From the NCBI RefSeq assembly GCF_002407185.1, contig NZ_CP023563.1, positions 124,001 through 188,000 on the forward strand: 64,000 nucleotides of DNA. Reading direction: 5' to 3'. Of this stretch, positions 11,094-63,754 are shown piece by piece. The notes below the pieces were generated by a model. That model worked only from the letters and a program-made list of their open reading frames with translations, was not told the origin of the DNA and made no database searches. A program made the position numbers and the translations under genes. Origin of the DNA: Brachybacterium vulturis. Its GTDB lineage: Bacteria > Actinomycetota > Actinomycetes > Actinomycetales > Dermabacteraceae. Numbering within the stretch: position 1 is the stretch's first letter; each line of letters begins with the position of its first letter.

Positions 11094-11140
11094 GGGTGTC
11101 CTCTCGGTGGGGGCCTCCGACGGGAGGCATGCCCCGACCG

Positions 11141-11170
11141 TAGACACGCCTTGCCGCCAAGGCATAGCCT
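11141..11170 (+). promoter_or_regulatory. XRE-cupin gene promoter with palindrome in the spacer
   Basis: TAGACA (11141-11146), 18-nt spacer, TAGCCT (11165-11170), ATG at 11178, so the mRNA is probably leaderless. The perfect inverted repeat GCCTTG-CCGC-CAAGGC (11148-11163) fills the spacer between -35 and -10, the classic place for a repressor, and lies between the divergent flavoprotein and regulator genes. Confidence 0.6.
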
Positions 11171-11177
11171 CTTGCTC

Positions 11178-12505: not shown

Positions 12506-12689
12506 GGCAGCTCCGATCTGCCCGGCGAGCGCGGCACCGGCACTCGGCACCGAGCTCTGCGCGGACAGCACACCCCAGCGAGCCTCGGCGTCCCGGGCGG
12601 TTCGCTCGGCATCGCGGGAGCGCGGCGAGCCATCGGGGTCTACCGTGGCACCAGGAGCGATCCGTCGCCGCGTCGAGAAGAGGCCCGCC

Positions 12690-49207: not shown

Positions 49208-50182
49208 ATGACCCTCTCCACCCGCCCCCGGACCTCGGCGCCCGCCTCGCGCCCCGATCCCCCGGCGCCGCGCCGCCCCCGTCGCAGCTGGTTCCCGTAC
49301 CTGATCCTGCTGCCCGCAGTGATCCTGGAAGTGCTGATCCACCTCATCCCGATGATGACCGGCTTCTGGATGAGCTTCGTCGAGCTCACCAAGTTCTTCA
49401 TCCGCCGCTGGACGGAGGCCCCCTTCGCGGGGCTGGAGAACTACCGGATCGCCGTCGACCTGAACACCCCGGTCGGCCAGGAGCTGCTGAACTCCTTCCT
49501 GGTCACCGTCGGCTTCACCGTGCTGGTGGTGGGGCTGAGCTGGGGTCTGGGCATGGCGGCGGCCGTCGCCCTGCAGCGCCCCTTCCGCGGGCGCGGCGTG
49601 TTCCGCACCCTGTTCCTGATCCCCTACGCCCTGCCGCTGTACGCCGCGGTGATCACCTGGAACTTCATGCTCCAGCGCGACACCGGGGTCATCAACCACC
49701 TCCTGGTCGAGCAGCTGGGCCTGCTCGAGGACGCCCCGTTCTGGCTGATCGGCGACAACGCCTTCGTCTCCGTGGTGGTGGTCGCGGTCTGGCGCATGTG
49801 GCCCTTCGCGTTCCTGATGTTCATGGCCGGGCTGCAGTCCATCCCCGGCGAGCTCTACGAGGCCAGCGCCATGGACGGTGCCACCCCGCTGCGGCAGTGG
49901 CGCGCCGTCACCCTGCCGATGCTCGCCCCGGTCAACCAGACCATGCTGCTGGTGATGTTCCTGTGGGTGTTCAACGACTTCAACACCCCGTACATCCTGT
50001 TCGGCACCGCCCAGCCCCCGGCCGGCGACCTCATCAGCTTCCACATCTACAACGCCTCGTTCCTGTCCTGGGACTTCGGCGTGGGCAGCGCGATGAGCGT
50101 CCTGCTGCTGCTGTTCCTGCTGGTGGTGTCCCTGCTCTACCTGTACTTCACCCAGTGGAGGAAGGAGTCCTCCCATGCGTGA
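49208..50182 (+). CDS. CUT1 sugar ABC permease, MalF type
   Basis: First permease, 324 aa. Pro/Arg-rich N-terminus, six helices, EAA loop LYEASAMDGATPLRQWRAVTLPMLAPVNQTMLL. Its 3' end overlaps the second permease gene by 8 nt. Confidence 0.92.
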   Translation: MTLSTRPRTSAPASRPDPPAPRRPRRSWFPYLILLPAVILEVLIHLIPMMTGFWMSFVELTKFFIRRWTEAPFAGLENYRIAVDLNTPVGQELLNSFLVTVGFTVLVVGLSWGLGMAAAVALQRPFRGRGVFRTLFLIPYALPLYAAVITWNFMLQRDTGVINHLLVEQLGLLEDAPFWLIGDNAFVSVVVVAVWRMWPFAFLMFMAGLQSIPGELYEASAMDGATPLRQWRAVTLPMLAPVNQTMLLVMFLWVFNDFNTPYILFGTAQPPAGDLISFHIYNASFLSWDFGVGSAMSVLLLLFLLVVSLLYLYFTQWRKESSHA

Positions 50183-51014
50183 GACCCTCGGCGAGAAGAT
50201 CTTCCGCATCGTCGTGCTCGTGGGCCTCGGCCTGTTCGTGGTGCTGCCGCTGTACGTCATGATCACCACCAGCCTCAAGCCGCTCGGCGACGTCCAGGCC
50301 GGGTTCTCCTGGTGGCCCAGCCGCGTGACCTTCGGGCCGTTCATCGAGATGTGGTCCACCGTGCCGCTGGCGCGGTACTTCATGAACTCGCTCGTGGTCA
50401 CCTCGGTGGCGACGCTGTGCAGCGTGGTGGTGGCGATCTTCGCCGCCTATGCCGTCTCCCGCTGGCGGTTCCGCGGCCGCAGCACGTTCATGACCACGGT
50501 GCTGTCCACCCAGATGTTCCCCGGTGTGCTGTTCCTGCTGCCGCTGTACCTGATCTTCGTCAACATCGACACCACCTTCGGCGTTCCGTTGGTGGGCACC
50601 CGCATCGGCCTGATCATCACCTACCTGACCTTCTCCCTGCCCTTCTCCATCTGGATGCTCGCCGGCTACTTCGACGGCATCCCCCGGGAGCTGGACCAGG
50701 CGGGCAAGGTCGACGGCGCCGGCAACCTCACCATCCTGCTGCGGATCATCCTGCCCGCCGCCCGTCCCGGCATCGTGGCGGTCGCGATCTACGCCTTCAT
50801 GACGGCCTGGGGCGAGGTGCTGTTCGCCTCCGTGCTCACCACGGAGGACACCCGCACCCTGGCCGTGGGCCTGCGGCAGTACGCCACCCAGACCAACGTC
50901 TACTGGAACCAGGTCCTCGCCGCCTCGATCGCGGTGTCGATCCCGGTGGTGGGCGGCTTCTTGATGATGCAGAAGAACTTCGTCGCCGGCCTCACCGCCG
51001 GCGCCGTGAAATGA
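50175..51014 (+). CDS. CUT1 sugar ABC permease, MalG type
   Basis: Second permease, 279 aa, six helices. EAA loop LDQAGKVDGAGNLTILLRIILPAARPGIVAVAIYAFMTAWGEVLFA; C-terminus FVAGLTAGAVK. The start lies inside the previous gene after AGGAAGGAG. No ATPase gene follows, so an external one (for example 44318-45457) is needed. Confidence 0.92.
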   Translation: MRETLGEKIFRIVVLVGLGLFVVLPLYVMITTSLKPLGDVQAGFSWWPSRVTFGPFIEMWSTVPLARYFMNSLVVTSVATLCSVVVAIFAAYAVSRWRFRGRSTFMTTVLSTQMFPGVLFLLPLYLIFVNIDTTFGVPLVGTRIGLIITYLTFSLPFSIWMLAGYFDGIPRELDQAGKVDGAGNLTILLRIILPAARPGIVAVAIYAFMTAWGEVLFASVLTTEDTRTLAVGLRQYATQTNVYWNQVLAASIAVSIPVVGGFLMMQKNFVAGLTAGAVK

Positions 51015-51052
51015 TCCCACCACTTCTCCCCGCCCACCGCGAAAGGACCCCG

Positions 51053-51787
51053 ATGGAGATCTCCGTCCAGATGTACAGCGTGCGCGAGTCGCTCGCGACC
51101 GACGTCCAGGCCACCGTGCAGCGCCTGGTCGAGCTCGGACTCACCCACGCCGAGCCGTACCACCTGCTGGAATACCGCGACGAGCTGGTGCGCGCCCGCG
51201 AGCAGTTCCCGATCGACTTCCCCAGCGCCCACCAGTCGTTCCTCGGCGAGGTGGACTTCCCCGCCGTGCTCGAGGCCGCCCAGGCGGTGGGGGTGCAGTA
51301 CCTCGTGGATCCGTTCTGGAATCCGGAGGACTGGACCGACGCCGAGAAGGTCCGCGCACTGGCCGACACGCTCAACCAGCGGGCCGCGGAAGCCGCCGAG
51401 GCGGGGATCCGCGTCGGCTACCACAACCACCATTTCGAGCTCGCCTCGCAGCTGGGCGGACGCACCGCTCTCGAGGTCTTCGCGGAGGCGCTGGACCCGC
51501 AGGTGGTCCTCGAGGTCGACACCTACTGGGCGGCCGTCGGCGGGGCCGAGGTGCCCGCACTGCTGGGCCGCCTCGGCGAGCGGGTGCAGCTGGTCCATCT
51601 CAAGGACGGCGACCTGTCCACGGATCCCGCCGCCCAGCTCCCCCTCGGCACCGGGGCGATGCCCCTGGCCGAGACGCTGCAGGCCGCTTCCGGCGCCGCC
51701 TACGGAGTGATCGAGTTCGACGACTACGCGGGCGACATGTTCGAGGGCATCGCGGCGTCGGTCGCCCACCTGCGCTCCGTCCTCTGA
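51053..51787 (+). CDS. Sugar phosphate isomerase/epimerase family TIM-barrel protein
   Basis: AP-endonuclease-2-like TIM barrel of 244 aa. VQMYSVRESLATDVQATVQRLVELGLTHAEPY at the start, metal-site residues in GYHNHHFELA, VLEVDTYWAAVGG, VHLKDGD and the final Glu in GVIEFDDY. Such enzymes isomerise or epimerise keto-sugars or inosose. GAAAGGA before ATG 51053. Fits a catabolic step for the sugar brought in by the preceding importer. Confidence 0.87.
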   Translation: MEISVQMYSVRESLATDVQATVQRLVELGLTHAEPYHLLEYRDELVRAREQFPIDFPSAHQSFLGEVDFPAVLEAAQAVGVQYLVDPFWNPEDWTDAEKVRALADTLNQRAAEAAEAGIRVGYHNHHFELASQLGGRTALEVFAEALDPQVVLEVDTYWAAVGGAEVPALLGRLGERVQLVHLKDGDLSTDPAAQLPLGTGAMPLAETLQAASGAAYGVIEFDDYAGDMFEGIAASVAHLRSVL

Positions 51788-51855
51788 CCTCACGCGGACC
51801 GGCCCTCCCGGGCCCGCACCCCGCGCTTCGCACCCCACCCTCGAAGGACACCCCC

Positions 51856-52989
51856 ATGACCTCTCAGACCCCGACCGGTCCCGTCGGCGTCGGCCTCATC
51901 GGCGCCGGCACCATCTCCACCCAGTACCTCACCCACCTCACCTCCTTCCCGGACCTCACCGTGCACATCGTCGGCGACCTGGTCCCCGAGGCCGCCGCGG
52001 CCCGCGCCGAGGAGTTCGGCGTCCCCGCCTCCGGCACCGCCCAGGACGTGCTGGACCACCCCGAGGTGGAGATCGTGGTCAACCTGACCATCCCCACCGC
52101 CCATGCCGAGGTCTCCCGCGCGATCGTCGCGGCCGGCAAGCACGTGTGGACCGAGAAGCCGATCACCACCGACCCGGCCGATGCGAAGGCCCTGCTCGCG
52201 GCGGCCGAGGAGGCCGGGGTGCGGGTGGGCGGCGCGCCCGACACCGTGCTCGGCGCCGGCATCCAGACCGCGCTGCGCACCCTGCGCGAGGGCGGGGTCG
52301 GCGCCCCGGCCAGCGCCCTGACCCTGTTCCAGTCCCCGGGCCCCGAGTCCTGGCACCCCAATCCCGCCTTCCTCTTCCAGGAGGGTGCCGGCCCGCTGTA
52401 CGACATCGCCCCCTACTACGCGACCACCCTGGTGCTCGCCCTGGGCCCCGTGGCCTCGGTCAGCGCCGTCGGCTCGACGGCGCGCGAGCAGCGCACCATC
52501 GGCTCCGGCCCCCTGGCCGGGGAGGTCTTCGACGTCACCGTGCCCACGCAGGTCGCGGCGCTGCTGCGCTTCGCCTCAGGTCAGAACGCGACCGTGCTGC
52601 TGAGCTTCGACTCCCCGCACACGCGCGCCGGCTTCGTCGAGGTGTACGGCACCGAGGCGACGCTCGCCTTCCCCGATCCCAACGTCTTCGACGGCGACTC
52701 GGCCCTGACCGCCTACCGCGGCGAGGAGCCGACCGCGGTGCCCGCTGCGGGCGCCACCACCGGGCGCGGCCTGGGCGTGCTGGAGATGGCGCGTGCGCTC
52801 CGCGCCGGGGTGCCCCACCGTGCGCAGGGCGAGGTCGCCGCCCACGTCCTGGACATCATGGTGGGCATCGAGACCGCGATCGCCGAGGACTCGATCGTGC
52901 GGATCGATTCGCGCTTCACGGAGGTCGAGCCGATGCCGGCCGACTTCGACCCCTTCGCCGCGACGCTGGCGCCGGTGCCTGCCCGGTGA
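51856..52989 (+). CDS. Gfo/Idh/MocA-family oxidoreductase
   Basis: NAD-dependent sugar dehydrogenase-like protein of 377 aa. Rossmann start VGVGLIGAGTISTQYLTHLTSFP; GKHVWTEKPITTDPADAKALL with the EKP Lys; GAGPLYDIAPYYATTLVLALGPV in place of the usual D-x-x-x-H helix. 68 bp after the isomerase gene, same operon. An isomerase plus Gfo/Idh pair resembles inositol or keto-sugar catabolism. Confidence 0.88.
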   Translation: MTSQTPTGPVGVGLIGAGTISTQYLTHLTSFPDLTVHIVGDLVPEAAAARAEEFGVPASGTAQDVLDHPEVEIVVNLTIPTAHAEVSRAIVAAGKHVWTEKPITTDPADAKALLAAAEEAGVRVGGAPDTVLGAGIQTALRTLREGGVGAPASALTLFQSPGPESWHPNPAFLFQEGAGPLYDIAPYYATTLVLALGPVASVSAVGSTAREQRTIGSGPLAGEVFDVTVPTQVAALLRFASGQNATVLLSFDSPHTRAGFVEVYGTEATLAFPDPNVFDGDSALTAYRGEEPTAVPAAGATTGRGLGVLEMARALRAGVPHRAQGEVAAHVLDIMVGIETAIAEDSIVRIDSRFTEVEPMPADFDPFAATLAPVPAR

Positions 52990-53070
52990 GCCACCGGGGC
53001 GGGGTTCTGCGTAGTCTGAGCCCACGCCCCGGTGTCCGTGCCGGGGGAAGATCCTTCCCGAGGAGGCCCG

Positions 53071-54027
53071 ATGCCCGCTGCCCGCGACGTCAGCCTGATC
53101 GTGAGCGTCGCGCGCCTGTACTACGACCAGGGGCTGTCGCAGTCACAGATCGCCGCCGAGCTGAACCTGTCCCGCTCGAACGTCTCCCGGATCCTCTCCC
53201 AGGCCAAGGAGCGAGGGATCGTGGAGGTCATCATCCATGACCCCGCCGGACCACCCGTCCGGGTGGCCTCCCTCGAACAGCAGCTCCAGGCGGCGTACGG
53301 GCTGGGCGATGTGCATGTGGTCGCAGCGACCCGCTCCTCGGCGCCCGAGATGACGGCCCGGCAGGGTGCCCTCGTGTTCACCCAGCGGCTGGCAGGGGTG
53401 CGCCGGGTCGGGGTCTCGTGGGGGCAGGCGGTCCAGAGCGTCATCGATCACCTGGAGCAGCAGCGGCTGCGCCCGGTACCGGAGCTCTTCCCCCTGGTAG
53501 GGGGGCTCAGCGCTCTCGATCAGCTGGCGTCCGGGGAATCCGTGCTGCGTGTGCTGTCCGCAAAGCTCGAGGCCCGGGCGCACACCCTGTATGCCCCGGC
53601 GGTGCTGGAGTCCGCCGAGACCGTGCGGAGCCTGCGCACCGAGTCGACCATCGCCTCGGTGCTCGAGGCGGCGGCCGCGGTCGAGCTGGCCCTGGTGGGC
53701 ATCGGCTCGGTGGGCGTGCACTCCTCGCTGCACATCGTCGAGCGGATGAAGCTCACCGACGCCGAGAAGCGCACCTTCGCCAAGCAGCATCCGGTGGGCG
53801 ACATCTGCGCCCGCCTGGTCGACGCCGACGGCCGTCCGGTGGGCGCTCCGGCGGAGGACCGTGTGCTCGCGGTGACCTTCGCGGAGCTGCGCGCGATCCC
53901 CGAGGTGGTCGGGGTCGTGTTCGGTGTGGAGAAGGCTCCGGGGGTCAGCGGTGTGCTGCGCAGCGGGGCGCTGGACACCGTCGTGCTGGATGAGCACCTC
54001 GCCCGGGAGCTGCTCTCCACGGTCTGA
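53071..54027 (+). CDS. SorC/DeoR-like sugar-binding transcriptional regulator
   Basis: Regulator of 318 aa. N-terminal HTH SVARLYYDQGLSQSQIAAELNLSRSNVSRILSQAKERGIVEVIIHDP (residues 12-57), then the SorC effector domain: RRVGVSWGQAVQSVIDHL, LFPLVGGLSALDQL, VELALVGIGSVGVHSSL, HPVGDICARLVDADG. SorC members sense phosphorylated sugars. AGGAGG before ATG 53071. It converges on the 11-gene PTS/dehydrogenase cluster and is its most likely regulator, although distant from that promoter. Confidence 0.9.
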   Translation: MPAARDVSLIVSVARLYYDQGLSQSQIAAELNLSRSNVSRILSQAKERGIVEVIIHDPAGPPVRVASLEQQLQAAYGLGDVHVVAATRSSAPEMTARQGALVFTQRLAGVRRVGVSWGQAVQSVIDHLEQQRLRPVPELFPLVGGLSALDQLASGESVLRVLSAKLEARAHTLYAPAVLESAETVRSLRTESTIASVLEAAAAVELALVGIGSVGVHSSLHIVERMKLTDAEKRTFAKQHPVGDICARLVDADGRPVGAPAEDRVLAVTFAELRAIPEVVGVVFGVEKAPGVSGVLRSGALDTVVLDEHLARELLSTV

Positions 54028-54078: not shown

Positions 54079-54603
54079 TCACCCGGCCAGCCAGTCCCGG
54101 GCGCGACGCTCGAGGTCCGCGTCGTCGCTCGCGGCGAGCATCGCGCGCACGGCGTCGGGCTCCTGCAGCCGTGCCACCAGGTTCTGCAGCGCCGACAGCT
54201 GGCTGGTGGCATCGGCGAGCACGAGCATGATGATCAGCTCCGCCCAGATGGTGCGCTCTCCGGAGGAGCCGATCTCGCCGAACGCGACCGGCTCCTCCGG
54301 GACCGCGACGGCGAACCCCGGGGTGATCACGTGCTCGGGGTCGGTGTGCGGGATCGCCGCGGGCACGAGCGTGGGCAGGCCCGTGGGGTGCTTCTCCTCG
54401 CGCAGCAGCACGGCCGCTTCGAAGGAGTCGGTGACCGCACCGATCTCCCGCAGGCGCGCCGAGAGGGCCCGCAGAGCGGCGGGGGCATCATCCGCCTCGA
54501 GGCCGAGGAGCGCGGCGCCCGGCAGGATGCTCGCCTGCGGCGCAGCAGCGTCCTCGTCCGCGGCCGCGGCGTTCCCGCTCTGAGCGGTGCTGTCCTCGTT
54601 CAT
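54079..54603 (-). CDS. gatA: PTS IIA component, fructose/galactitol (EIIA-2) type
   Basis: Phosphocarrier of 174 aa receiving phosphate from HPr. Ala-rich N-terminus of 25 residues, then FEAAVLLREEKHPTGLPTLVPAAIPHTDPEHVITPGFAVAVPEEPV with the phospho-site His86 in IPHTD. ATGA overlap with the IIC gene. Last gene of the cluster. Galactitol as the substrate is not implied. Confidence 0.87.
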   Translation of the reverse strand: MNEDSTAQSGNAAAADEDAAAPQASILPGAALLGLEADDAPAALRALSARLREIGAVTDSFEAAVLLREEKHPTGLPTLVPAAIPHTDPEHVITPGFAVAVPEEPVAFGEIGSSGERTIWAELIIMLVLADATSQLSALQNLVARLQEPDAVRAMLAASDDADLERRARDWLAG

Positions 54604-56024
54604 GCTCCTGCTCCGTCCCGCGCCGCGGCGCCGTCCGTGGTCTCCGCCGCGAGTGCGCGACGGTCCCGGGCCTTCATCGCGAAGCGGATCGCGACCACCC
54701 CGGCCAGGCACAGCACGGCCGTGGCGAGCACGCCGACGGTCCCGAGCTCGGCACCGGCGAAGAACAGGCCGGTCAGCGGGTTCGCCCCGTCGACCAGCGA
54801 GGAGATCGTCGCCTGTCCGTCCTCGAGGGCGAAGCCCGATTCCACCGCGATCTGGGTGAAGGTGGGGGCGATCCAGGTGGCGATGAACAGACCGGCACCG
54901 ATCAGGATGCCACCACCGATCACCGAGCGCACGATGTTGCCGCGGAAGATCGGGACCATCACGGCGACGATGAACGGGATGGTGGCGAGGTCCACCAGCG
55001 GCAGCACCCTGTTGCCGGCCGGTGCGAGGATCACTGCGATCAGCAGCGTGATCGGCACCAGCAGCAGCGAGGTCGCGATCACCGAGGGCTGGCCGACGGC
55101 GATCGCGGAGTCAAGGCCGATGTAGAAGGTCCGCCCCGGGAACCGCTTCTGCACGAAGGTGCGGGCGGCCTCGGAGATCGGCATCAGCCCCTCCATCAGG
55201 ATCGCCACCATCCGCGGCAGCAGGAACATCGCGGCGGCGAGCGAGATCGCGAGGGTGAGGATCGCGGTGGAGTCCTCGGCCGGAGCGTCGAAGCCGTAGC
55301 CGAGGATGCCGATCAGCACGCCCAGGATCAGGCCCATCATGAGGGTCTCGCCGAACAGTCCGAAGCGCTTCTGGATCGCCTCCGGGGTCGCGTCGAGCCT
55401 GCGGAGCCCGGGGATCGCGTCGAACACCTTATTCATCGGGATGGCGAGCAGCCCGTACGGGGCGGAGGTCCCGTGAGGGAAGGAGATCTCCGGCAGCTGG
55501 AAGTACTTCTGCACGATCGGGGCGGTGAGGTCGGCCATGGCGAGGATCAGGGCCAGGTGCACCGCGGCGCTCAGCAGACCCAGCAGGTAGTTCCCCGTGA
55601 CGGCGCCGACCAGCGCCCCGATCATCGCGCTGTGCCAGTAGTTCCACAGGTCGATGTCGAAGGTGCGGGTGAGCCCCGTCAGCAGCAGCACCACATTGAC
55701 CACCAGGCCCAGCGGGATGATCATCGCTCCGATCGAGGAGCCGAAGGCGATCGCGGCCGAGGACGGCCATCCGACGTCCACCACGTCCAGGCTCACGCCG
55801 AGCCCTTCGGCCATCCCGGTGGCCGCCGGGGCCACCTGCGCTGCGAGCAGGCCGATCACCAGGTTGATGCCGATGAAGCCGATGCCGATGGTGACCCCGG
55901 CACGGAAGGACTTGCCCAGTCTCAGGCCGAGCAGCAGACCGAACAGCGTGATGATGACCGGCAGGACCACGGAGGGGCCCAGCGTGTTGAGATAGCTCGA
56001 GATGGGTGCGAGGAAGGACTCCAT
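54600..56024 (-). CDS. gatC: PTS IIC component, galactitol (GatC) type
   Basis: Membrane channel subunit of 474 aa. GPSVVLPVIITLFGLLLGLRLGKSFRAGVTIGIGFIGINLVIGLL, DVGWPSSAAIAFGSSIGAMIIPLG and FDIDLWNYWHSAMIGALV are GatC-type. About eleven helices and an Ala/Arg-rich cytoplasmic tail. Overlaps the IIA gene by ATGA; 46 bp after the IIB gene. The GatC family also carries ribitol, arabitol and other polyols. Confidence 0.9.
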   Translation of the reverse strand: MESFLAPISSYLNTLGPSVVLPVIITLFGLLLGLRLGKSFRAGVTIGIGFIGINLVIGLLAAQVAPAATGMAEGLGVSLDVVDVGWPSSAAIAFGSSIGAMIIPLGLVVNVVLLLTGLTRTFDIDLWNYWHSAMIGALVGAVTGNYLLGLLSAAVHLALILAMADLTAPIVQKYFQLPEISFPHGTSAPYGLLAIPMNKVFDAIPGLRRLDATPEAIQKRFGLFGETLMMGLILGVLIGILGYGFDAPAEDSTAILTLAISLAAAMFLLPRMVAILMEGLMPISEAARTFVQKRFPGRTFYIGLDSAIAVGQPSVIATSLLLVPITLLIAVILAPAGNRVLPLVDLATIPFIVAVMVPIFRGNIVRSVIGGGILIGAGLFIATWIAPTFTQIAVESGFALEDGQATISSLVDGANPLTGLFFAGAELGTVGVLATAVLCLAGVVAIRFAMKARDRRALAAETTDGAAARDGAGA

Positions 56025-56070
56025 GATGCTCTCCTTTGAGCGTGGAGGGATGGGAAGGGCCGAGGCCAGG

Positions 56071-56346
56071 TCAGCTCAGGGCTCGGGAGATCTCGTCGAG
56101 CACCTCGTCCTGACCCATGCCGGTCAGCAACGGCAGCGCCCGGATCACGGGCACGGTCACCGAGGCGGGAACATCGGTGGTGGCCACGATGAGATCGGCG
56201 TCGACGTCACCGCCGACGAGGTCCATGACCTTGCCCTGAGCGACGGTCGCCCCGATGCCCTTCTCGGCGAGGTGGTCTCGCACCTTGGCGGCGACGACGG
56301 TGGAGGTCGCGACGCCCGTGCCGCAGATGATGAGGACCTTCTTCAT
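56071..56346 (-). CDS. gatB: PTS IIB component, galactitol (GatB) type
   Basis: Phosphotransfer protein of 91 aa. P-loop-like active site KKVLIICGTGVATSTVVAAKV with phospho-Cys8; the rest (KVMDLVGGDVDADLIVATTDV) matches the GatB fold. 49 bp after the E2 gene and before IIC. Completes a three-protein galactitol-class PTS with the IIA and IIC genes. Confidence 0.9.
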   Translation of the reverse strand: MKKVLIICGTGVATSTVVAAKVRDHLAEKGIGATVAQGKVMDLVGGDVDADLIVATTDVPASVTVPVIRALPLLTGMGQDEVLDEISRALS

Positions 56347-56395
56347 GGCTGCTCCTGGAGGATCGAGGGTGGGGTGATCGGTCGATTCTGTGTGC

Positions 56396-57736
56396 TCACA
56401 GCGCCAGCCGCAATGGATCGTCCAGCAGTTCCTGGATCTCCTGGAGCGCCCGGGCGGCGTCGGCGCCGTCGGCCACCCGGTGGTCGATGGACAACCCGAG
56501 CTCACAGCTCATCCGTCCGGTCACGGTGCCGTCCTGCTCCACCACGGGAGCGAAGCCGACGGTGCCGATGCTGAGCGCCGTCGCCTGCGGCGGGGTGATC
56601 AGCGCATTGAACCGGTCCACGCCCATCCCGCCGAGATTCGAGACGGTGCCGGTGGCGGGTCCGAACAGGGAGGGGTCCACGGTCCCCGCCTTGGCGGAGG
56701 CGCCGATCTCGCGGATCTGGGCATCCAGCGCCCGGACGCTCTGCAGATCCGGTTCGCGCACCACCGGCACGAGCAGGCCTCCTGGGGTGTCCACGGCCAG
56801 GACCACATCCACGCTGGGGTTCCGCTTCACCCCGTCACCGGCCCAGGACCCGTTCAGCTGCGGGGTGGCCCGCAGCAGCAGTGCGTAGGCGCGCACCAGC
56901 AGGGTGGTCCAGCTGATGCCCTTCAGCACGCCGGTGCGGGCGCGGGCGGCGGTGGACAGGTCCATCGTCCGGAAGGCCGTGAACTGCGGGATCAGCGGGG
57001 TGGTGGCCATCGCACGCGCCGTGAGCTGACGGGTGCGACGGTCCCGGGCCGAGCCCAGCAGCTCCTCGGGAGCGGCATCGACCACGGGTGCGGCGAGCGC
57101 CGCTGCAGTGCTCTCATCGGCGGTCGATGCGGGGGCGGCCGACGGGGCGGACGGGGCCTTCTGGTCGGAGACGCGCTGGGCGTCGGTCGCGGCGATCGCC
57201 TCCTTGACGTCCTTGACGCGGACCGTGCCGTGAGGGCCGGTCGGGGTGAGCGCGCGCAGGTCCAGTCCATGGTCCTTGGCGAGCTTTCGCGCCAGCGGCA
57301 CCGTCGGCGGCATCGGGCCCTCGGGCCCGGAGGCCGGTGCGACCGTCTCGGCGGGCTCGTCGGAACCGCCGGAGCCTGTCGTGCCCGTGGTCCGTGCGGC
57401 CTGGGCAGAGGTGTCCGTCGTACCGGGGCTCCCCTCGGCCGCGGCGCCCGCGTCCCCACCGTCGCCGGCGAAGAGGTCACCGAGCAGATCCTCCTCCTCG
57501 GAGGTGACCAGTGCGATGTGGTCGCCGACGGCGACGACGTCGCCCTCGGCGTGCAGCAGCTTCGCGACCACCCCGGCGGCCGGGGACTCGACCTCCATGT
57601 CGACCTTGTCGGTCATCACCACCGCGACCACGTCGCCCTTGGCGATCTCATCGCCCTCGGCGACCTGCCATTCGGTGATCGTGCCCTCGTCCATGGTCAT
57701 GGACATCTTGGGCATCGTCAGCGGGATCTCGGCCAT
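56396..57736 (-). CDS. 2-oxoacid dehydrogenase E2 (dihydrolipoyl acyltransferase)
   Basis: E2 core subunit of 446 aa. One lipoyl domain (residues 1-78, lipoyl Lys44 in MTDKVDME), Ala/Thr/Ser-rich linker, E1/E3-binding domain VPLARKLAKDHGLDLRALTPTGPHGTVRVKDVKEAI (about 145-185), second flexible linker, acyltransferase domain ending in the active site SIDHRVADGADAARAL. It forms with E1alpha and E1beta an acetoin- or pyruvate-dehydrogenase-like complex. No E3 gene nearby, so it must use the housekeeping dihydrolipoyl dehydrogenase. 3 bp after E1beta. Confidence 0.9.
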   Translation of the reverse strand: MAEIPLTMPKMSMTMDEGTITEWQVAEGDEIAKGDVVAVVMTDKVDMEVESPAAGVVAKLLHAEGDVVAVGDHIALVTSEEEDLLGDLFAGDGGDAGAAAEGSPGTTDTSAQAARTTGTTGSGGSDEPAETVAPASGPEGPMPPTVPLARKLAKDHGLDLRALTPTGPHGTVRVKDVKEAIAATDAQRVSDQKAPSAPSAAPASTADESTAAALAAPVVDAAPEELLGSARDRRTRQLTARAMATTPLIPQFTAFRTMDLSTAARARTGVLKGISWTTLLVRAYALLLRATPQLNGSWAGDGVKRNPSVDVVLAVDTPGGLLVPVVREPDLQSVRALDAQIREIGASAKAGTVDPSLFGPATGTVSNLGGMGVDRFNALITPPQATALSIGTVGFAPVVEQDGTVTGRMSCELGLSIDHRVADGADAARALQEIQELLDDPLRLAL

Positions 57737-57739
57737 GGC

Positions 57740-58729
57740 TCACCACTCCTTCACGAGCGCGGCGGCTTCGCGGACGATGTCGTCCACCTGCGGGACCGCG
57801 GCCTTCTCGAGCTCAGGGTTGTAGGGGATGGGGATGTCGAGGCCGCAGAGCCGCTTCACCGGTGCCTGCAGGTGCCCGAAGGCGGAGGACTCCACGATCG
57901 ACGCGGCGATCTCCCCCATGAATCCGCCGAAGCGCACGGACTCCTGGACCAACAGGGCGCGGCCCGTGCGGGTGACGCTGTCGACGATGAGCGGCAGGTC
58001 CAGGGGCTTGAGCGTGCGGGGATCGATGACCTCCGCGCTGATGCCGTCCTGGGCCAGGGATCCGGCCGCCTCCAGGGAGCGCTGCACCTGGACGCCGGTG
58101 GCGACGATGGTCAGGTCGGTCCCCTCCCGCTCGATCTTCCCGACCCCCAGGCGTCCGACCTCGAACGTCTCGGGCACCTCGTAGGTCTGCTTGTAGAGCA
58201 GCTTGTGCTCGAGCACCATCACGGGGTTCGGATCCTCGAGCGCTGCCAGCAGCAGCTCGGCGGCGTCGCGCGCGTTCGAGGGCATGACCACCTTGATGCC
58301 CGGGACGCAGGTGAACCAGGCCTCCAGGGACTGCGAGTGCTGGGCGGCGGCGCCGGTGCCCGAGCCGCCGGGGGCACGGATCACCAGCGGGACGTTCGCC
58401 TGCCCGCCCACCATGAAGTGGAGCTTCGCGGCCTGGTTGGCGATCTGGTCCATCGCCTGGGCGGTGAAGTCGGAGAACTGGATCTCGACGATGGGCCGCA
58501 TGCCGGTGATCGCGGCGCCGACGCCCATCCCGACGATCCCGAGCTCGGAGATCGTGGTGTCCCGCACCCGCTCCGGGCCGAAGCGGTCGATGAGGTCGTT
58601 CTCGACCCCGAAGGCGCCGCCGTACAGGCCCACGTCCTCCCCCATCAGGAAGACCCGCTCATCGGCGGTCATCGCCTGGGCCATCGCCTCGCGGATGGCC
58701 TCGGAGTACGTCATCTCACGGGTGCTCAT
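57740..58729 (-). CDS. 2-oxoacid dehydrogenase E1 component, beta subunit
   Basis: Thiamine-diphosphate E1 beta of 329 aa. [99 protein letters not shown] and the transketolase C domain [18 protein letters not shown]...[11 protein letters not shown] are all intact. Closest in style to acetoin dehydrogenase and pyruvate dehydrogenase beta chains. Overlaps the E1alpha gene by ATGA. Confidence 0.92.
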
Positions 58730-59826
58730 CGTCCTGCCTCCGCATCGTCAGTGGTCGCGCCGGCGGTCAGGGCCGTCTCGGCATCACGGGTGTCGGTGGC
58801 GTCCACGGCCGAGGGGGCGTAGACGGCGTCCAGCAGCGCGGCGGGATCCGGGTCCTCGCCCTGGGTGCCGAAGACGACCGCCTCACGGATCGCGGTGCGC
58901 GCATCCGCCTGCAGCGCATCGAGCTGGTCCTGGTCGAGGATCCCGGCCTCCAGCAGGTGATGGGCGAAGGCGGCGATCGGGTCCTTCTCCTTCCACTCGG
59001 CGATCTCCTCCTTGGAGCGGTACCGGTTCTTGTCCGACTTGGAGTGGCCGCGCCAGCGGTAGGTCACCGCCTCGACGAAGCTCGGCCCCTCCCCCGCCCG
59101 GGCCCGGTCGATCGCCCGTCCGGTGGCGTCGGCGACGGCGTGGACGTCGTTGCCGTCGACGCTCTCGCCGGGGATGCCATAGCCGATCGCCTTCACCGCG
59201 AGGTTCTCGACCTTGAACGCCTTGTGCGAGGACATCGACATGCCGTACTGGTTGTTCTCGCAGACGAACACCACCGGCAGGTTCCACATGGAGGCGAGGG
59301 TGAGCGCCTCGTGCCAGGCGCCCTCACCCACGGCGCCGTCGCCGTGGAAGCAGACCGCGACCCGTCCGTTGCCGGTGAGCTGGTTGGTCAGCCCCGCCCC
59401 GGCGGCGATCGGGACACCGCCGGCGACGATGCCGTTGGCGCCGAGGTTGCCGGTGGCGACGTCGGCGATGTGCATGGAGCCGCCGCGGCCGCGGCAGTAG
59501 CCGTTGTCCTTGGCCAGCAGCTCAGCCATCATCCTGCCGAGGTCGGCACCGCGGGCGATGCAGTGCCCGTGGCCGCGGTGGGTGGAGGTGATCTGGTCAC
59601 CCTCCTCGAGGTTCAGGCAGGTCCCGGTGGGGACGGCTTCCATCCCGATGGACAGGTGCATGGTCCCGTGCATCATGCCGCGGCCGTAGAGGTCCTCGAC
59701 GGCCTCCTCGAACAGGCGGATCCGCCACATGGTCGCGAGCGCCTCGCCCGCGGTCCCCGGGTCGGAGAGCAGGGCATCGGGGCCGGGGCCGGCGGCGGTG
59801 GACTCACCGGTGGTGGGCGTGCTCAT
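58726..59826 (-). CDS. 2-oxoacid dehydrogenase E1 component, alpha subunit
   Basis: E1 alpha of 366 aa. Thiamine-diphosphate motif [36 protein letters not shown]; catalytic and phosphorylation-loop-like regions [50 protein letters not shown]. Acetoin dehydrogenase alpha-like. N- and C-terminal tails are Thr/Ala/Asp-rich. Overlaps the oxidoreductase gene before it and E1beta after it by ATGA, so expression is tightly coupled. Confidence 0.92.
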
Positions 59827-61124
59827 CGGATCACTCCTTGCGCGATCATCGCGTCCTGCATCCGGCGCATCGCGACCAGCGGCCGCGACTCGTCGAGGAG
59901 GACGTCGTCGTAGGTCAGGGCCTGCCCGGCCGGGACGTCCCGGACCAGGGTCGAGGTGGCGGCGAGGGCGATCGGCAGCAGCTGCTCCTGGCGGGTCTGC
60001 GCCGCGTCGTAGGCGGTGCCGTGCAGGTGGTGCCCGCCGATCCCCTCGAGGACGGTGCCGTCGGAGAGGTCGGACTTGGCGGTGGCGATGACATCGGCGG
60101 TCCACGCGGTGGCGGCGAACGACGGCCGACGATCCAGCACCGCCTCGCCGATCGACAGCGGTGCCTCGACCGAGGCGAGGTGGAAGGGACGGTAGAGCTG
60201 GAAGTGGTTCCCCTCCCCCGGCAGGCGCAGGTAGTGCAGCTCCTCGGTGACCACCTCGCTGTCGGAACGCACCACGACGAACACCCCGGGGGCGACGTCC
60301 CCGGTCACGTACTCGACCACCGGCCCATCGGAGGTGACGATCCCGCCCTCGGCCACCGGGCGCAGCGTCCTGGCGAGCCCGTCGAGGTCCACGGCCGCGC
60401 CGTGCATGCCCGGGGTCTCGATCGAGTAGCCGGTGGCGTTGGCGAGCGCGGCCATCTCGATCTGGGTCTTGGTGCCGTCGGTGAAGGAGGTGAGCATCTT
60501 GGGATTCATGCCCTTGCGCTCGGCCTCCTCGGCCACGTCCTCGGGGACGTCGGTGGGGCGCATCGGGTTGTTCTTGCCCTTGCCCGCCACGACCACCTCG
60601 AGCCCGAGGTCCGTCGCGTACTCGACGAGCTTGAGGCATTCGACGGGTTCGTCGCCGCGGCACACCGTGTACACGGCGCTGCCGGAGGCTGCCGTCCGTG
60701 CCAGCAGCAGTCCCACGGTCACATCGGCCTCGACGGTCATCAGCGCGACGTCCGTGCCGGCGAGGATGCAGGACAGCGCCACCTGCGCGGCCACGTCCGG
60801 GATCCCCGAGACCTCGACGACGATGTCCAGCGGGAGTTCGGCCAGGCGCAGCCCGTCGTCCAACACCGCGGCGCGACCGGAGGTGATGACCTCGGCGGCG
60901 TGCTCGATGCTGGTGGCTCGTTCGACGTCGCTGCGGCCGGCCCCGGCGAGCGCTGCCTCGGCACGGTCGATCGCGACGTCGGCGACGGCCGCGACCACCA
61001 TCCCCCGGGCGCGGTGGACCTGAGCGACCAGGCCCGAGCCCATCTGCCCGGCACCGACGATGCCGACCCGCACGGGGCGGCCGAGCGCGGCCTCACGCTC
61101 GATCAGACGCTGCGAGTAGCTCAT
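59823..61124 (-). CDS. Homoserine-dehydrogenase-like oxidoreductase with C-terminal SAF domain (COG4091-like)
   Basis: NAD(P)-dependent oxidoreductase of 433 aa. Rossmann fold VRVGIVGAGQMGSGLVAQVHRARGMVVAAVAD; central VCRGDEPVECLKLVEYATDLGLEVVVAGKGKNNPMRPTDVPE and KGMNPKMLTSFTDGTKTQIEMAALANATGYSIETPGMHG, highly typical of the family; SAF-like segment near the end (VRDVPAGQALTYDDVLLDESRPLVAMRRMQD). Often mislabelled flagellar FlgA because of the SAF part. It occupies the place where sorbitol-6-phosphate dehydrogenase would stand in an srl operon, so it is the candidate enzyme oxidising the PTS product. Flanked by ATGA overlaps. Confidence 0.85.
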   Translation of the reverse strand: MSYSQRLIEREAALGRPVRVGIVGAGQMGSGLVAQVHRARGMVVAAVADVAIDRAEAALAGAGRSDVERATSIEHAAEVITSGRAAVLDDGLRLAELPLDIVVEVSGIPDVAAQVALSCILAGTDVALMTVEADVTVGLLLARTAASGSAVYTVCRGDEPVECLKLVEYATDLGLEVVVAGKGKNNPMRPTDVPEDVAEEAERKGMNPKMLTSFTDGTKTQIEMAALANATGYSIETPGMHGAAVDLDGLARTLRPVAEGGIVTSDGPVVEYVTGDVAPGVFVVVRSDSEVVTEELHYLRLPGEGNHFQLYRPFHLASVEAPLSIGEAVLDRRPSFAATAWTADVIATAKSDLSDGTVLEGIGGHHLHGTAYDAAQTRQEQLLPIALAATSTLVRDVPAGQALTYDDVLLDESRPLVAMRRMQDAMIAQGVIR

Positions 61125-61555
61125 GCCGGGGTTCCTTCCGCAGTGGCTGTGCGGGGGCTGCGCGCACGGAGGGAGCGGGTGGGCCTGGTGGTCTCGCGGA
61201 ACTGCGCGGTGGCCTGCTCCAGGGCCGTGACCATGTGCTTGCTGGTGGCCCTCTCGAGCGCGCCCTTGAGATTGCCCTCGAGGAAGCGGGTGCGGCGGAA
61301 CCGGGCGAGCACCGTCGAGCCCTGCATGGTGCGGGCCTCGAGGATGCGACGGGTGGTGGCGTCGACGGCGAGGATCACCACGCAGCCGCGCAGGAAGCCC
61401 TTGCCGCGGCCGGAGACGACCACGATGCCGTTGCGGTCGTGGGCATCCGCGAGCTCGCGGATCGCGCCGACGTACGCGCGGTGCTGCTGATAGCTGAACG
61501 CGAAGGACAGGACGATCGCGAAGATCAGCAGTGCGATGAATCCGAGCTGGTCCAT
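61121..61555 (-). CDS. gutM: Glucitol operon activator-like protein GutM
   Basis: Membrane-anchored protein of 144 aa. One N-terminal helix LGFIALLIFAIVLSFAFSYQQHRAYV and the GutM core VVVSGRGKGFLRGCVVILAVDATTRRILEARTMQGSTVLARFRRTRFLEG. In Escherichia coli GutM aids srl expression; its mechanism is unclear and it may act with the transporter. ATGA overlap with the oxidoreductase gene. Confidence 0.87.
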   Translation of the reverse strand: MDQLGFIALLIFAIVLSFAFSYQQHRAYVGAIRELADAHDRNGIVVVSGRGKGFLRGCVVILAVDATTRRILEARTMQGSTVLARFRRTRFLEGNLKGALERATSKHMVTALEQATAQFRETTRPTRSLRARSPRTATAEGTPA

Positions 61556-61590
61556 GAGGTGCTCCTCGGGAGAAGGGAGAGTAGGGATGG

Positions 61591-61968
61591 TCAGGCCGAG
61601 CGCAGGATGATCTGCTCCCCCGCGGCGGGCGGAGCGGCTGGGACGGCGTCGCCGCGCACGTGCACGGCGCCCGGCAGCAGCGTCTGGTCCACGGAGTTGA
61701 GGTAGAGGACCACGTGTCCGAGCTCGCGCAGGTTCTCGGTGGCCTTCTCCCCCACCTCGTCCACCGGGTACTGGCGACCGGCGACCTCGAAGACATCCCC
61801 CACCCGGATCTCCCGACCCGGTGCGCCGGCAGGGGTGTGGACGACGGAGACGTCGGCCAGGGCCGGCGGCACGGGCTCGGCGAACAGGATCATCACCCCG
61901 GCGTCGAACATCTCCTGCGCATCGATGCCGATACGGGTGACGGTGGTGGTCCAGAGGGGGGTGCTCAC
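61591..61968 (-). CDS. srlB: PTS IIA component, glucitol/sorbitol type
   Basis: Phosphocarrier of 125 aa. TTTVTRIGIDAQEMFDAGVMILFAEPVPPALADVSVVHTPAG with phospho-site His44, and YPVDEVGEKATENLRELGHVVLYLNSVDQTLLPGAVHVRG, a very close match to SrlB. GTG start, 44 bp after the IIBC gene. Confidence 0.92.
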   Translation of the reverse strand: MSTPLWTTTVTRIGIDAQEMFDAGVMILFAEPVPPALADVSVVHTPAGAPGREIRVGDVFEVAGRQYPVDEVGEKATENLRELGHVVLYLNSVDQTLLPGAVHVRGDAVPAAPPAAGEQIILRSA

Positions 61969-62012
61969 AGCGGGGCGCTCCTTGCGGGTCGGAAGAGGTC
62001 GGTGGGGTCCGG

Positions 62013-63071
62013 TCAGTTGACGAGGAAGCCCGCGAAGTACGCGATGATCACCGCGATCGGTGAGGTGATCAGGCGGGAGAAGAGCACGGCGGGCACACCC
62101 ACCGAGACCGTCTCCGGCTTCGCTTCTCCGAGGGACAGGCCGACGGGGATGAAGTCACAGCCGACCTGGCCGTTGATCGCGAACAGGGTGGGCAGCGCGT
62201 ACTGGACGGGCAGGTTGCCCGCCGCGATCTGGGTGCCCATGAGCACGCCGACGACCTGGGCGATCGCGGCGCCGGGGCCGAGGATCGGGGACAGGATCGG
62301 GATCGCGGTGATCACGCCCAGCAGGATCAGACCCAGCGGGTTGCCGACCAGCGGGGTGACCAGCTGGGCGATGCCCTCGGAGATCCCGGTGTAGGTGACG
62401 ATGCCGATCAGCAGCGACACGTAGGCCATGAACGGAATGATCGTCTGCAGGCACAGCTGCACGGCCTGGCGCCCGGAGGAGAGCAGGGTGTTGATCAGAT
62501 AGCCGATGACCCCGCCGAACTTCACCACCACGCCGGTGAATCCGCCCATGCCGCCGGATGCCATCGCGGCTCCGGTCTGCTCGATCCGCTCCTGCTTGGA
62601 CGGCAGGGTCTTGGGATCGGTGGCGGTCGCCCCGTCGGTGCCGGCACCTGCCGCTCCGGCGGCTCCGGCGGTGGTGGCCGCAGCCGTCGCCGCCTGGTCG
62701 GAGTCCAGGAGCTCGACGTCCGCCGGCGCCACCGCGGAGACGAAGATGTCCGCCGTGATGAACTGGGCCAGCGGGCCCGAGGGCTCCCCGGCGTACACGT
62801 CGACGGTGGGGATCCGCTTCTTGGGGTAGACGCCGATGCGGGCGGTGCCGCCGCAGTTGATCACGGCGACCATGACCTTGTCGTCCTCGACGTGGTTCGT
62901 GAACCCGTCCACCGCGGTGGCGCCGGTCAGCTCCGCGATGCGGGCCGCGACCGGGTGGATTCCGCCGTTGGTGACGGAGAGGACGACGTCCTTGGTCTCA
63001 GTGGGGGTCAGGGTGAGTCCGTCGCCCCAGCCACCACGACCCCGACGGACGTGGACGCTGCGAGCGCTCAT
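62013..63071 (-). CDS. srlE: PTS IIB-IIC2 component, glucitol/sorbitol type
   Basis: Subunit of 352 aa. N-terminal IIB domain with phospho-Cys in VINCGGTARIGVYPKKRIPTVDVYAGEPSGPL; an Ala/Gly/Thr-rich linker of 35 residues (ATAAATTAGAAGAAGAGTDG); then membrane part YINTLL-like YLINTLLSSGRQAVQLCLQTIIPFMAYVSLLIGIVTYTG and GPGAAIAQVVGVLMG...NGQVGCDFIPVGLSLGEAKPETVSVGVPAVL. Overlaps the IIC gene by ATGA. Confidence 0.92.
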   Translation of the reverse strand: MSARSVHVRRGRGGWGDGLTLTPTETKDVVLSVTNGGIHPVAARIAELTGATAVDGFTNHVEDDKVMVAVINCGGTARIGVYPKKRIPTVDVYAGEPSGPLAQFITADIFVSAVAPADVELLDSDQAATAAATTAGAAGAAGAGTDGATATDPKTLPSKQERIEQTGAAMASGGMGGFTGVVVKFGGVIGYLINTLLSSGRQAVQLCLQTIIPFMAYVSLLIGIVTYTGISEGIAQLVTPLVGNPLGLILLGVITAIPILSPILGPGAAIAQVVGVLMGTQIAAGNLPVQYALPTLFAINGQVGCDFIPVGLSLGEAKPETVSVGVPAVLFSRLITSPIAVIIAYFAGFLVN

Positions 63072-63754
63072 CGCAGGCCTCCCTGGATGGTGCCGGCCGC
63101 GTAGTCCTCGTCGAACTGGTCGAACTTCTCGCGGTCGGGGCCGCGGCGGATCATCACCTCGGTGATCCACTGGGTGACGATGCCGCGGATCAGGATGACC
63201 ACGATGCCGACCAGGAAGTACATGACGGCGAGCTTCGCGTAGGCCTCGGGGTTGATCGCCAGCACACCGGCGCTGACGCCGGCCCACACGAAGATCTCCC
63301 CCGCATTGGCGTGCGGGAAGAAGCTGGTGACCGGGTGGACGAACGAGACGGCGGAGTCGTAGAACGCCGGCTTCTGTCGTTCGGGCAGGAATCGACCGAA
63401 CGTGTAGCACATCGGGTTGGTGAGCATGATGACGGCGAGGATCGGCATCACCGTGTACCGGGTGAGCGCGTACTTCCCGGACCAGCGCACGGCGCGGGTC
63501 ACCCGTTCCTCACCGATCCAGGTGGTGACCGCGTACATCGCGGTGAGCAGAACGATCAGCAGCGGCAAGATCCCGGTGAAGAGTCCGGTGAAGCTCTCCG
63601 CCGCGGCCTGGAAGAGGCCGATGAAGTGCTCGGCGGCCCAGGTGATCGCCTTCATCACCGGGTTGTCGGCACCGACTGCGGGAGCGGGATCGGCGAGGAT
63701 CACACCTCCCGCGAGCTGTTGGCTGTCGAGCCCTGCAAGGGCTGTGACGGTCAT
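63068..63754 (-). CDS. srlA: PTS IIC component, glucitol/sorbitol type
   Basis: First gene of the cluster, membrane protein of 228 aa. Conserved SrlA stretches: AAEHFIGLFQAAAESFTGLFTGILPLLIVLLTAMYAV, YTVMPILAVIMLTNPMCYTFGRFLPERQKPAFYDSAVSFVHPVTSFFPHANAGEIFVWAGVSAG. GAAGGAGATT before ATG 63754; an in-frame start at 63835 would add a polar leader and is rejected. The region upstream carries two inverted repeats. Confidence 0.92.
   Translation of the reverse strand: MTVTALAGLDSQQLAGGVILADPAPAVGADNPVMKAITWAAEHFIGLFQAAAESFTGLFTGILPLLIVLLTAMYAVTTWIGEERVTRAVRWSGKYALTRYTVMPILAVIMLTNPMCYTFGRFLPERQKPAFYDSAVSFVHPVTSFFPHANAGEIFVWAGVSAGVLAINPEAYAKLAVMYFLVGIVVILIRGIVTQWITEVMIRRGPDREKFDQFDEDYAAGTIQGGLR

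Follow-up and report, generated by a model that had tools for sequence, protein, structure and literature searches.

An eleven-gene operon of Brachybacterium vulturis joins two sugar phosphotransferase systems to a DXR type II enzyme and an E1/E2 complex and may catabolise 2-C-methyl-D-erythritol

The window analysed here is a 64,000-nucleotide stretch of the Brachybacterium vulturis genome (contig NZ_CP023563.1, positions 124,001 to 188,000), a genome that consists of a single 3.8 Mb contig. At 54079-63754 of the window lie eleven minus-strand genes which join two phosphotransferase systems (PTS) for sugar import to an oxidoreductase of the DRL family and to the E1 and E2 subunits of a 2-oxoacid dehydrogenase-type complex. 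The initial annotation had described these eleven genes with 4-bp overlaps or gaps below 50 bp, and family searches and spacing confirmed all of them. The gene order is SrlA, SrlE, SrlB, GutM, DRL, E1 alpha, E1 beta, E2, GatB, GatC, GatA, and the intergenic spacing in the same order is -4, 44, 35, -4, -4, -4, 3, 49, 46 and -4 bp, which means that five junctions have a 4-bp overlap and the remaining five are 3 to 49 bp apart. Each of the eleven genes has a TGA stop and a purine-rich stretch upstream. A sequence scan listed no promoter-like or terminator-like sites on the minus strand, but such scans prove little and this one was uninformative. Judged by their layout, the eleven genes are one minus-strand operon. 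They are given below together with the gene that converges on them; MEP stands for 2-C-methyl-D-erythritol 4-phosphate and DXP for 1-deoxy-D-xylulose 5-phosphate.

63068..63754, minus strand: SrlA-like IIC of a glucitol-class PTS (PF03608, E 3.7e-70; NF049923, 199.8 bits, cut-off 150)
62013..63071, minus strand: SrlE-like IIBC of a glucitol-class PTS (PF03612 and PF07663; NF049924, 418.3 bits, cut-off 400)
61591..61968, minus strand: SrlB-like IIA (PF03829, E 5.6e-27; NCBIfam IIA models matched below their cut-offs)
61121..61555, minus strand: GutM-like protein (PF06923, E 8e-14)
59823..61124, minus strand: DXR type II (DRL), proposed oxidoreductase from MEP to DXP (PF21135, E 2.3e-58; PDB 3upl/3upy)
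58726..59826, minus strand: E1 alpha subunit, proposed to cleave DXP (PF00676, E 1.3e-81; groups with DRL-linked E1s; K262)
57740..58729, minus strand: E1 beta subunit (PF02779 and PF02780)
56396..57736, minus strand: E2 acyltransferase with one lipoyl domain (PF00198, PF00364 and PF02817; lipoyl, E3-binding and acyltransferase domains)
56071..56346, minus strand: GatB-like IIB (PF02302, E 7.7e-12; galactitol IIB model 40 bits, cut-off 95)
54600..56024, minus strand: GatC-like IIC (PF03611, EIIC-GAT, E 8.8e-85, 285.6 bits)
54079..54603, minus strand: GatA-like IIA, galactitol/fructose-like (galactitol IIA model 59 bits, cut-off 139)
53032..54027, plus strand: sugar-binding transcriptional regulator, which we take to be of the SorC type (open reading frame, convergent to the operon)

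The start of the SrlA-like gene may sit about 33 codons further in. The SrlA, SrlE, SrlB and GutM families of a glucitol-class PTS are all present (SrlB by Pfam only), and the galactitol-class PTS has an EIIC-GAT permease with a IIA and a IIB that match the galactitol models below cut-off. Pfam and NCBIfam searches found no sorbitol-6-phosphate dehydrogenase (SrlD) or other short-chain dehydrogenase among the eleven genes, and because the operon has no other dehydrogenase, DRL fits as the sole oxidation before E1. The cluster also has no E3 and no PTS enzyme I, and the genome holds one lipoamide dehydrogenase and one enzyme I over the model cut-offs.

The fifth protein had been called a homoserine-dehydrogenase-like SAF protein, and this name says too little. 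Its central domain is DRL_cat, with 197 bits against a cut-off of 27, and its only PDB relatives at E <= 0.001 were 3upl and 3upy; residues 10-429 align to 3upl with E 3.6e-85, and the window DRL is 37% identical to the Brucella chain. No Pfam match to a SAF domain was found at E <= 0.001, although the C-terminal part still aligns to 3upl. The entry 3upy is the DXR-II of Brucella, and the study that names it so distinguishes DXR-II, for which eleven members are proven, from DLO1/DLO2, in which the four members tested did not complement (Carretero-Paulet et al. 2013, PMC3847144). It also states that the inhibitor, and presumably the substrate, is anchored by Lys191, Lys193 and Thr229, that Thr229 is absolutely conserved in DXR-II, and that most DXR-II proteins carry a SAF domain (PMC3847144). 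The window DRL keeps the equivalents of K191, K193, T229, H250 and R320. In a 74-row tree, whose root is arbitrary and in which DLO2-like rows were judged by residue 229, it falls on the Brucella side (64 rows, branch 100/99), apart from the rows that are DLO2-like by that residue. DLO1-like and Ser229 rows lie on that side as well, so the tree by itself does not decide membership. By domain and residues the fifth protein is a DXR type II, an alternative DXP reductoisomerase, and on this assignment MEP and DXP become the likely intermediates of the pathway.

For both E1 alpha and E1 beta the nearest PDB relative is human pyruvate dehydrogenase (PDH). E1 alpha does not reach the PDH E1 alpha equivalog cut-offs (352.5 bits against 393.85, and 250.7 against 411.35), while E1 beta passes the subfamily model NF006667 (363.4 bits, cut-off 321) and weakly matches the dxs model (78.1 bits, far under the cut-off of 465.95). 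The host genome has three further E1-beta-type loci with 42-50% identity. In a 33-row E1 tree, 25 DRL-linked E1s from Actinomycetota, Bacillota, Chloroflexota, Pseudomonadota and one Methylomirabilota assembly group together with one Clostridioides difficile plasmid E1, with moderate branch support (87/93), and outside this group fall four paralogues, a Rubrobacter plasmid E1 and two acetoin references, namely Thermus acoA (by annotation) and an Enterococcus cluster with a 2,3-butanediol dehydrogenase. In databases the DRL-linked E1/E2 proteins are annotated as pyruvate, 2-oxoacid or acetoin dehydrogenase. We rejected the housekeeping pyruvate dehydrogenase, which the initial annotation had named as a possible refutation, on the E1 alpha scores, the three other E1-beta-type loci and the separate tree group. 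Acetoin as the substrate was also set aside, as the cluster has no acetoin or butanediol genes and the linked E1s group apart from the acetoin references.

One position marks the linked E1 alpha proteins. At position 262, in the GHS-K-SD loop, all 70 DRL-linked rows have a basic residue (K in 68 and R in 2); these are E1s on the same stretch as DRL, with centres at most 9.3 kb apart, and the rows are not independent. Elsewhere the position is M in human PDH, T in the host's own paralogues, E in two other paralogues, and V and E in the acetoin references. We suggest that K262 may help to hold the phosphate of DXP. The C. difficile plasmid locus whose E1 shares the linked-type residues (L205, 5992-11912) has E1 alpha/beta, E2, lipoyl dehydrogenase and a sugar-binding regulator.

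The linkage of DRL with Srl and E1 genes was counted within 12 kb in three samples; their loci overlap (some lie in the same genome) and the rows are not independent. An even phylum sample held 246 genomes, 41 of them with the DRL family and 44 matches in all, of which one weak match was left out and the surroundings of 42 beside the window were fetched. Its 17 loci of K191/K193/T229 type had Srl in 14, E1 in 15 and either in 15, so that 16 of 18 have Srl and/or E1 once the window is counted, against none of the 25 other family members, some of which lie on short contigs. Those 25 have Ser at 229 (18) or another type (7), and near the 18 Ser229 genes, several of them on short contigs, there was no Srl, E1 or IspD. 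The group of Ser229 DRLs in small-genome actinobacteria (L030, L156-L160, L163-L170, L175, L178, L180 and L181) has no Srl, E1 or IspD nearby. In the host's family, 12 of 47 genomes have the DRL family (19 match rows; 12 loci beside the window were examined and three weaker genes, six rows, were left out), and the T229-type loci had Srl in 7/7 and E1 in 4/7, with either in 0/5 of the others. The third sample is a scan of named genomes, from which the best 80 of 580 confirmed places were kept (the 80 named loci). By record title most belong to Actinomycetota, Bacillota and Chloroflexota and a few to candidate phyla; gene order is reshuffled, and the 80 have Srl in 61, E1 in 51, both in 47 and either in 65; enzyme I is found in 23, E3 in 10, Gat IIC in 12, and Gat, Srl and E1 together in 8. 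In the neighbourhood check that had been suggested, Srl beside E1/E2 recurs, although most relatives have Srl without Gat (Srl in 61/80, Gat IIC in 12/80).

The two PTS sets are nevertheless not unlinked in all relatives. Besides the eight named loci, a Pseudoroseomonas plasmid (Alphaproteobacteria) has enzyme I, Srl IIA/IIB/IIC, GutM, DRL, E1 alpha, E1 beta and E2 together with Gat-type IIC/IIA/IIB and a sugar-binding regulator, which is the window's set in another phylum. In all, four phyla show DXR-II beside the Srl PTS and/or E1/E2, in varying gene order and with varying import modules. A Priestia plasmid carries E1/E1/E2/E3, a regulator, an MFS transporter, another regulator, DRL and an FGGY kinase, and on a Sinorhizobium americanum plasmid an ABC sugar transporter and a sugar kinase lie beside a regulator, DRL, E1 alpha, E1 beta, E2 and LpdA. 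Aminobacter has DRL-E1-E1-E2. The rhizobial DRLs that adjoin E1 are 70-73% identical to the solved Brucella enzyme, and one of them, from S. fredii NGR234, is presumably the same gene as the DXR-II in the table of PMC3847144. In a Rubrobacter-like genome an additional, nearly identical DRL copy with E1/E2 (L162, 2422-17677) lies next to a MIP-like channel, two FGGY-like kinases and genes resembling glycerol-1-phosphate dehydrogenase and GlpD (MIP and GlpD were assigned by eye, and the names are partly our assumption). Since MFS transporter and kinase, ABC transporter and kinase, or MIP-like channel and kinases can replace the PTS, DRL with E1/E2 appears to be the constant part while the import module changes.

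IspD, which uses MEP, lies within 12 kb of DRL in 36 of the 80 named loci, and this points to MEP as a shared metabolite. For three IspD representatives TIGR00453 was the best model, two of them just over the cut-off and one below it (146.6 of 181.3 bits). Many of these loci are one situation, in which the cluster is inserted at carD-ispD-ispF-cysS. In Amycolatopsis and Pseudonocardia IspD comes directly after E2 (two Amycolatopsis genomes have a further IspD-like gene elsewhere, at 178 and 167 bits and slightly under the cut-off), and in one Chloroflexota and one Actinomarina locus it lies upstream of the Srl genes. The host genome has two IspD-like genes, at G000:C1:3306826-3307494 and G000:C1:1231440-1232087, neither near the cluster and both under the model cut-off (162 and 152 bits).

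Isoprenoid genes were surveyed in 40 DRL-bearing genomes, the host and 39 that hold named loci. DXR-I was found in 21/40, the host included, and IspG in 34/40. The host has DXR-I, IspG and a DXS-like gene (below the model cut-off), and HMG-CoA reductase had no match in its genome, so DRL as the isoprenoid enzyme of the host was rejected. HMG-CoA reductase was present in 6 of 16 tested genomes, and these are precisely the six without IspG (Brachybacterium phenoliresistens, Sediminivirga luteola, Terrimesophilobacter mesophilus, two Anaerolineales and Virgibacillus oceani), in which we found no DXR-I and no DXS over cut-off either. Five of the six have Srl, DRL and E1/E2, B. phenoliresistens with the same eleven genes, and one has Srl and DRL. 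In these genomes DRL is present beside another isoprenoid route, and since they have HMG-CoA reductase and no IspG, DXR-II could not serve isoprenoid synthesis there. The opposite situation was seen in five small-genome actinobacteria (L097, L099, L100, L103 and L106) with DRL beside IspD and no Srl. Their genomes have IspG and DXS and lack DXR-I, so DRL is probably the biosynthetic DXR in them.

The reaction of DXR links DXP and MEP in both directions. What a glucitol-class PTS brings into the cell is a polyol phosphate, and MEP is 2-C-methyl-D-erythritol, a branched C5 polyol, with a terminal phosphate. Acetoin dehydrogenase-type E1/E2 complexes cleave acyloins, and DXP is an acyloin. There is a precedent for the E1 chemistry, as E. 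coli PDH E1 mutants form DXP in vivo and purified PDH is cited as forming 1-deoxyxylulose from pyruvate and glyceraldehyde (PMC3424233). From the gene content we infer substrates, reaction direction, E1 specificity and regulation as follows. The glucitol-class PTS would import 2-C-methyl-D-erythritol as MEP, DXR-II would oxidise MEP to the acyloin DXP in reverse of the entry step of isoprenoid synthesis, and E1 alpha/beta would cleave DXP on thiamin diphosphate into glyceraldehyde 3-phosphate and an acetyl unit, which E2 would hand via lipoamide to CoA to give acetyl-CoA, with the genome's lipoyl dehydrogenase serving as E3. The galactitol-class PTS would feed the same trunk with a second, related substrate, for which our first guess is 1-deoxy-D-xylulose (giving DXP directly) and our second another methyltetritol; the first guess is possible and we lean somewhat against it. 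The SorC-type regulator would sense a pathway intermediate. The operon would then be a catabolic pathway for 2-C-methyl-D-erythritol, in some relatives serving salvage as well. We consider it fairly probable that the operon catabolises 2-C-methyl-D-erythritol and a second related substrate, and we hold the three steps of import to MEP, oxidation to DXP and cleavage by E1/E2 a shade more firmly than the whole. The initial annotation had proposed that two PTS imports are followed by oxidation and by thiamin-dependent cleavage of an acetoin-like intermediate to acyl-CoA; this outline fits, with DXR type II as the piece it missed. Its polyol substrate gains support for the Srl branch, and that of the Gat branch is a guess.

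Several observations weigh against this pathway. The DXR equilibrium favours MEP, so reverse flow would need the pull of E1/E2; we found nothing on this equilibrium in open-licence PubMed Central. The window DRL has A for G121, K for E174, Y for F178, F for Y322 and T for V351, and these functional-divergence or interface positions vary among the linked DRL relatives as well. The T229-type rows of the DRL tree are not one clade, with DLO1-like and Ser229 rows inside and forks that are weak or open. Nor is T229 a strict mark of linkage, since six named loci have Ala at 229, all with Srl and five with E1, and one (L141) has Ser at 229 and E1. K at position 262 also occurs in the C. difficile plasmid E1, with no DRL nearby. 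Neither Srl nor E1 was found in 15 of the 80 named loci. Seven loci (L053, L056, L057, L073, L075, L140 and L148) combine Srl and DRL with TIM and YjbQ and have no linked E1, and six of these seven have a class II aldolase, a variant that the proposed chemistry does not explain. On a Ligilactobacillus megaplasmid DRL, Srl and GutM occur together with a sugar-binding regulator, fructose-6-phosphate aldolase and transketolase, and DRL also accompanies GutM and Srl in a Listeria record. The TIM/YjbQ, Ligilactobacillus and Listeria variants suggest other fates of the DRL product, which the proposed chemistry leaves unexplained.

The best surviving alternative is another branched or linear polyol (apiitol, 2-methylthreitol or an erythritol-like compound), on which DRL would carry out an analogous oxidation and rearrangement and E1/E2 would give another acyl-CoA. 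PTS substrates cannot be read from sequence, the window DRL departs from the Brucella enzyme at the functional-divergence sites just listed, and the Rubrobacter-like relative has DRL and E1/E2 with a GlpD-like dehydrogenase and FGGY-like kinases. We still regard this alternative as unlikely, as the frequent neighbour IspD is specific for MEP, the five small-genome actinobacteria with DRL beside IspD and no DXR-I point to true DXR activity, and acetyl is the simplest acyl unit for an E1/E2 akin to the acetoin and pyruvate enzymes.

Improbable, in our judgement, is a cluster that works mainly in salvage, in which imported methylerythritol would pass as MEP to IspD, DRL would supply DXP for thiamin and pyridoxal phosphate, and E1/E2 would be a surplus valve. 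The linkage to IspD speaks for it, and so at first did the distribution of DXS, which was surveyed in 64 genome rows with the actinobacterial genomes grouped by hand. DXS over cut-off was missing in 8 of 13 chosen Srl+DRL genomes and in 0 of 10 genomes with DRL and IspD without Srl (Fisher p 0.003). The 13 are mostly of small-genome lineages, own-family and Rubrobacter-like genomes having been left out; the small genomes are mostly metagenome assemblies, relatives were counted separately, and two of the 13 have no IspD on the fetched stretch. IspG was tested in nine of these first 23 genomes and was present in all nine. But thirteen further genomes with Srl, DRL and IspD (Kocuria, Cryobacterium, Klenkia, Amycolatopsis and others, mostly larger) all have DXS, and with them the comparison becomes 8/26 against 0/10 (p 0.08). 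Salvage also misfits the host, whose cluster contains no IspD and whose genome supplies MEP enzymes of its own, and the six IspG-less genomes. At most, the DXS pattern hints that some lineages can use imported methylerythritol in place of DXS, and small-genome actinobacteria may possibly depend on it. Among these, L101, L104, L105, L107, L111 and related loci have Srl and DRL beside IspD, several without DXS over cut-off, and the four small-genome Srl+DRL+IspD cases tested for DXR-I also lack it and have IspG.

Slightly less probable again is a biosynthetic cluster, in which E1 would replace DXS by making DXP from pyruvate and glyceraldehyde 3-phosphate and DRL would reduce DXP to MEP. The weak dxs match of E1 beta, the frequent IspD and the relatives without DXS over cut-off favour it; moreover, the E. 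coli PDH E1 mutants make enough DXP in vivo to replace DXS (PMC3424233). We considered E1 as a DXS substitute and thought it unlikely. Such a cluster has no place for the oxidative acyl-transfer chain of E2/E3 or for sugar importers, six DRL-bearing genomes have HMG-CoA reductase and no IspG, the host has DXR-I, IspG and a DXS-like gene, and the L101, L104 and L107 genomes, which lack DXS over cut-off, have no E1 on the fetched stretch. Chance adjacency of unrelated operons with an ordinary 2-oxoacid dehydrogenase, for which one could cite the missing Gat set of most relatives, is hardly credible and was rejected, since there are 4-bp overlaps between genes, a core of Srl, DRL and E1/E2 recurs across phyla in differing orders and on the Pseudoroseomonas plasmid, and the linked E1s group together.

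Around the operon, the SorC-type gene at 53032..54027 is probably the regulator of the cluster. A homologue lies near DRL in 58 of the 80 named loci, and homologues beside DRL are annotated as 'sugar-binding transcriptional regulator'. Just beyond the window, upstream of the operon (L050, about 10346-12537), a frame resembling a NUDIX hydrolase is accompanied by another GatA-like IIA and by another SorC-type gene, this one divergent, and a GatA/SorC pair is found in locus L055 too. The adjoining plus-strand genes at 49208-52989 of the window resemble a sugar ABC permease pair, a sugar phosphate isomerase/epimerase and a Gfo/Idh oxidoreductase, as read by eye from their translations.

Each part of the proposed catabolic operon resembles a known system and departs from it. 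Like glucitol (srlAEBD-gutM) and galactitol (gat) PTS operons, it has the same permease families and GutM, but it has no sorbitol-6-phosphate or galactitol-1-phosphate dehydrogenase among its eleven genes, and both permeases lie in one operon around DRL-E1-E2. Erythritol is catabolised by a kinase and a dehydrogenase, EryA/EryB. There too a polyol is phosphorylated and then oxidised, and in the Rubrobacter-like relative FGGY-like kinases and a GlpD-like dehydrogenase stand beside DRL and E1/E2, but here DXR-II and E1/E2 cleavage would replace the isomerases leading to erythrose 4-phosphate. With the acetoin dehydrogenase complex (AcoAB, E2 and E3) it shares E1 alpha/beta, a lipoyl E2 and, as proposed, the conversion of an acyloin to an aldehyde and acetyl-CoA; it differs in the separate E1 group, the K/R in the GHS-x-SD loop and the lack of acetoin neighbours. 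The DRL belongs to the family of the Brucella DXR type II over nearly its full length, with the same five residues kept. That enzyme is described as isoprenoid biosynthetic and redundant with DXR-I (PMC3847144), whereas the window DRL lies in a sugar-PTS operon of a host with DXR-I and would run in the reverse direction.

Among the papers listed from open-licence PubMed Central, subscription papers and preprints lying outside this scope, we recognised no description of methylerythritol or deoxyxylulose catabolism or of a DXR-II in a PTS operon. Parts of each kind are already known; what appears new is how they are combined and that the isoprenoid entry step would be reversed. If true, this would be a way to break down a branched C5 polyol through the first reactions of isoprenoid synthesis run in reverse; it would assign a substrate to the DRL-linked E1/E2 subfamily and make methylerythritol a candidate shared nutrient. 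Plants contain methylerythritol as glycosides, and isoprene in the air gives rise to 2-methyltetrols, so a substrate of this type could be common. A wider and more doubtful reading is that DXR-II is primarily catabolic and the biosynthetic DXR-II a later recruitment, that methylerythritol (with deoxyxylulose) is a widespread nutrient burned or fed to IspD in several phyla, and that some streamlined actinobacteria without DXS and DXR-I depend on imported methylerythritol for all isoprenoids. We hold this joint reading only tentatively, and a little less than before, since counting all Srl+DRL+IspD genomes makes the DXS pattern weaker. The 2013 survey of DXR-II asks how the enzyme evolved in strains already holding DXR-I, and reports DXR-II activity for bacteria in which no other MEP-pathway enzyme was found or which have the mevalonate route only (PMC3847144). 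A catabolic role of DXR-II, if true, would answer both of these puzzles.

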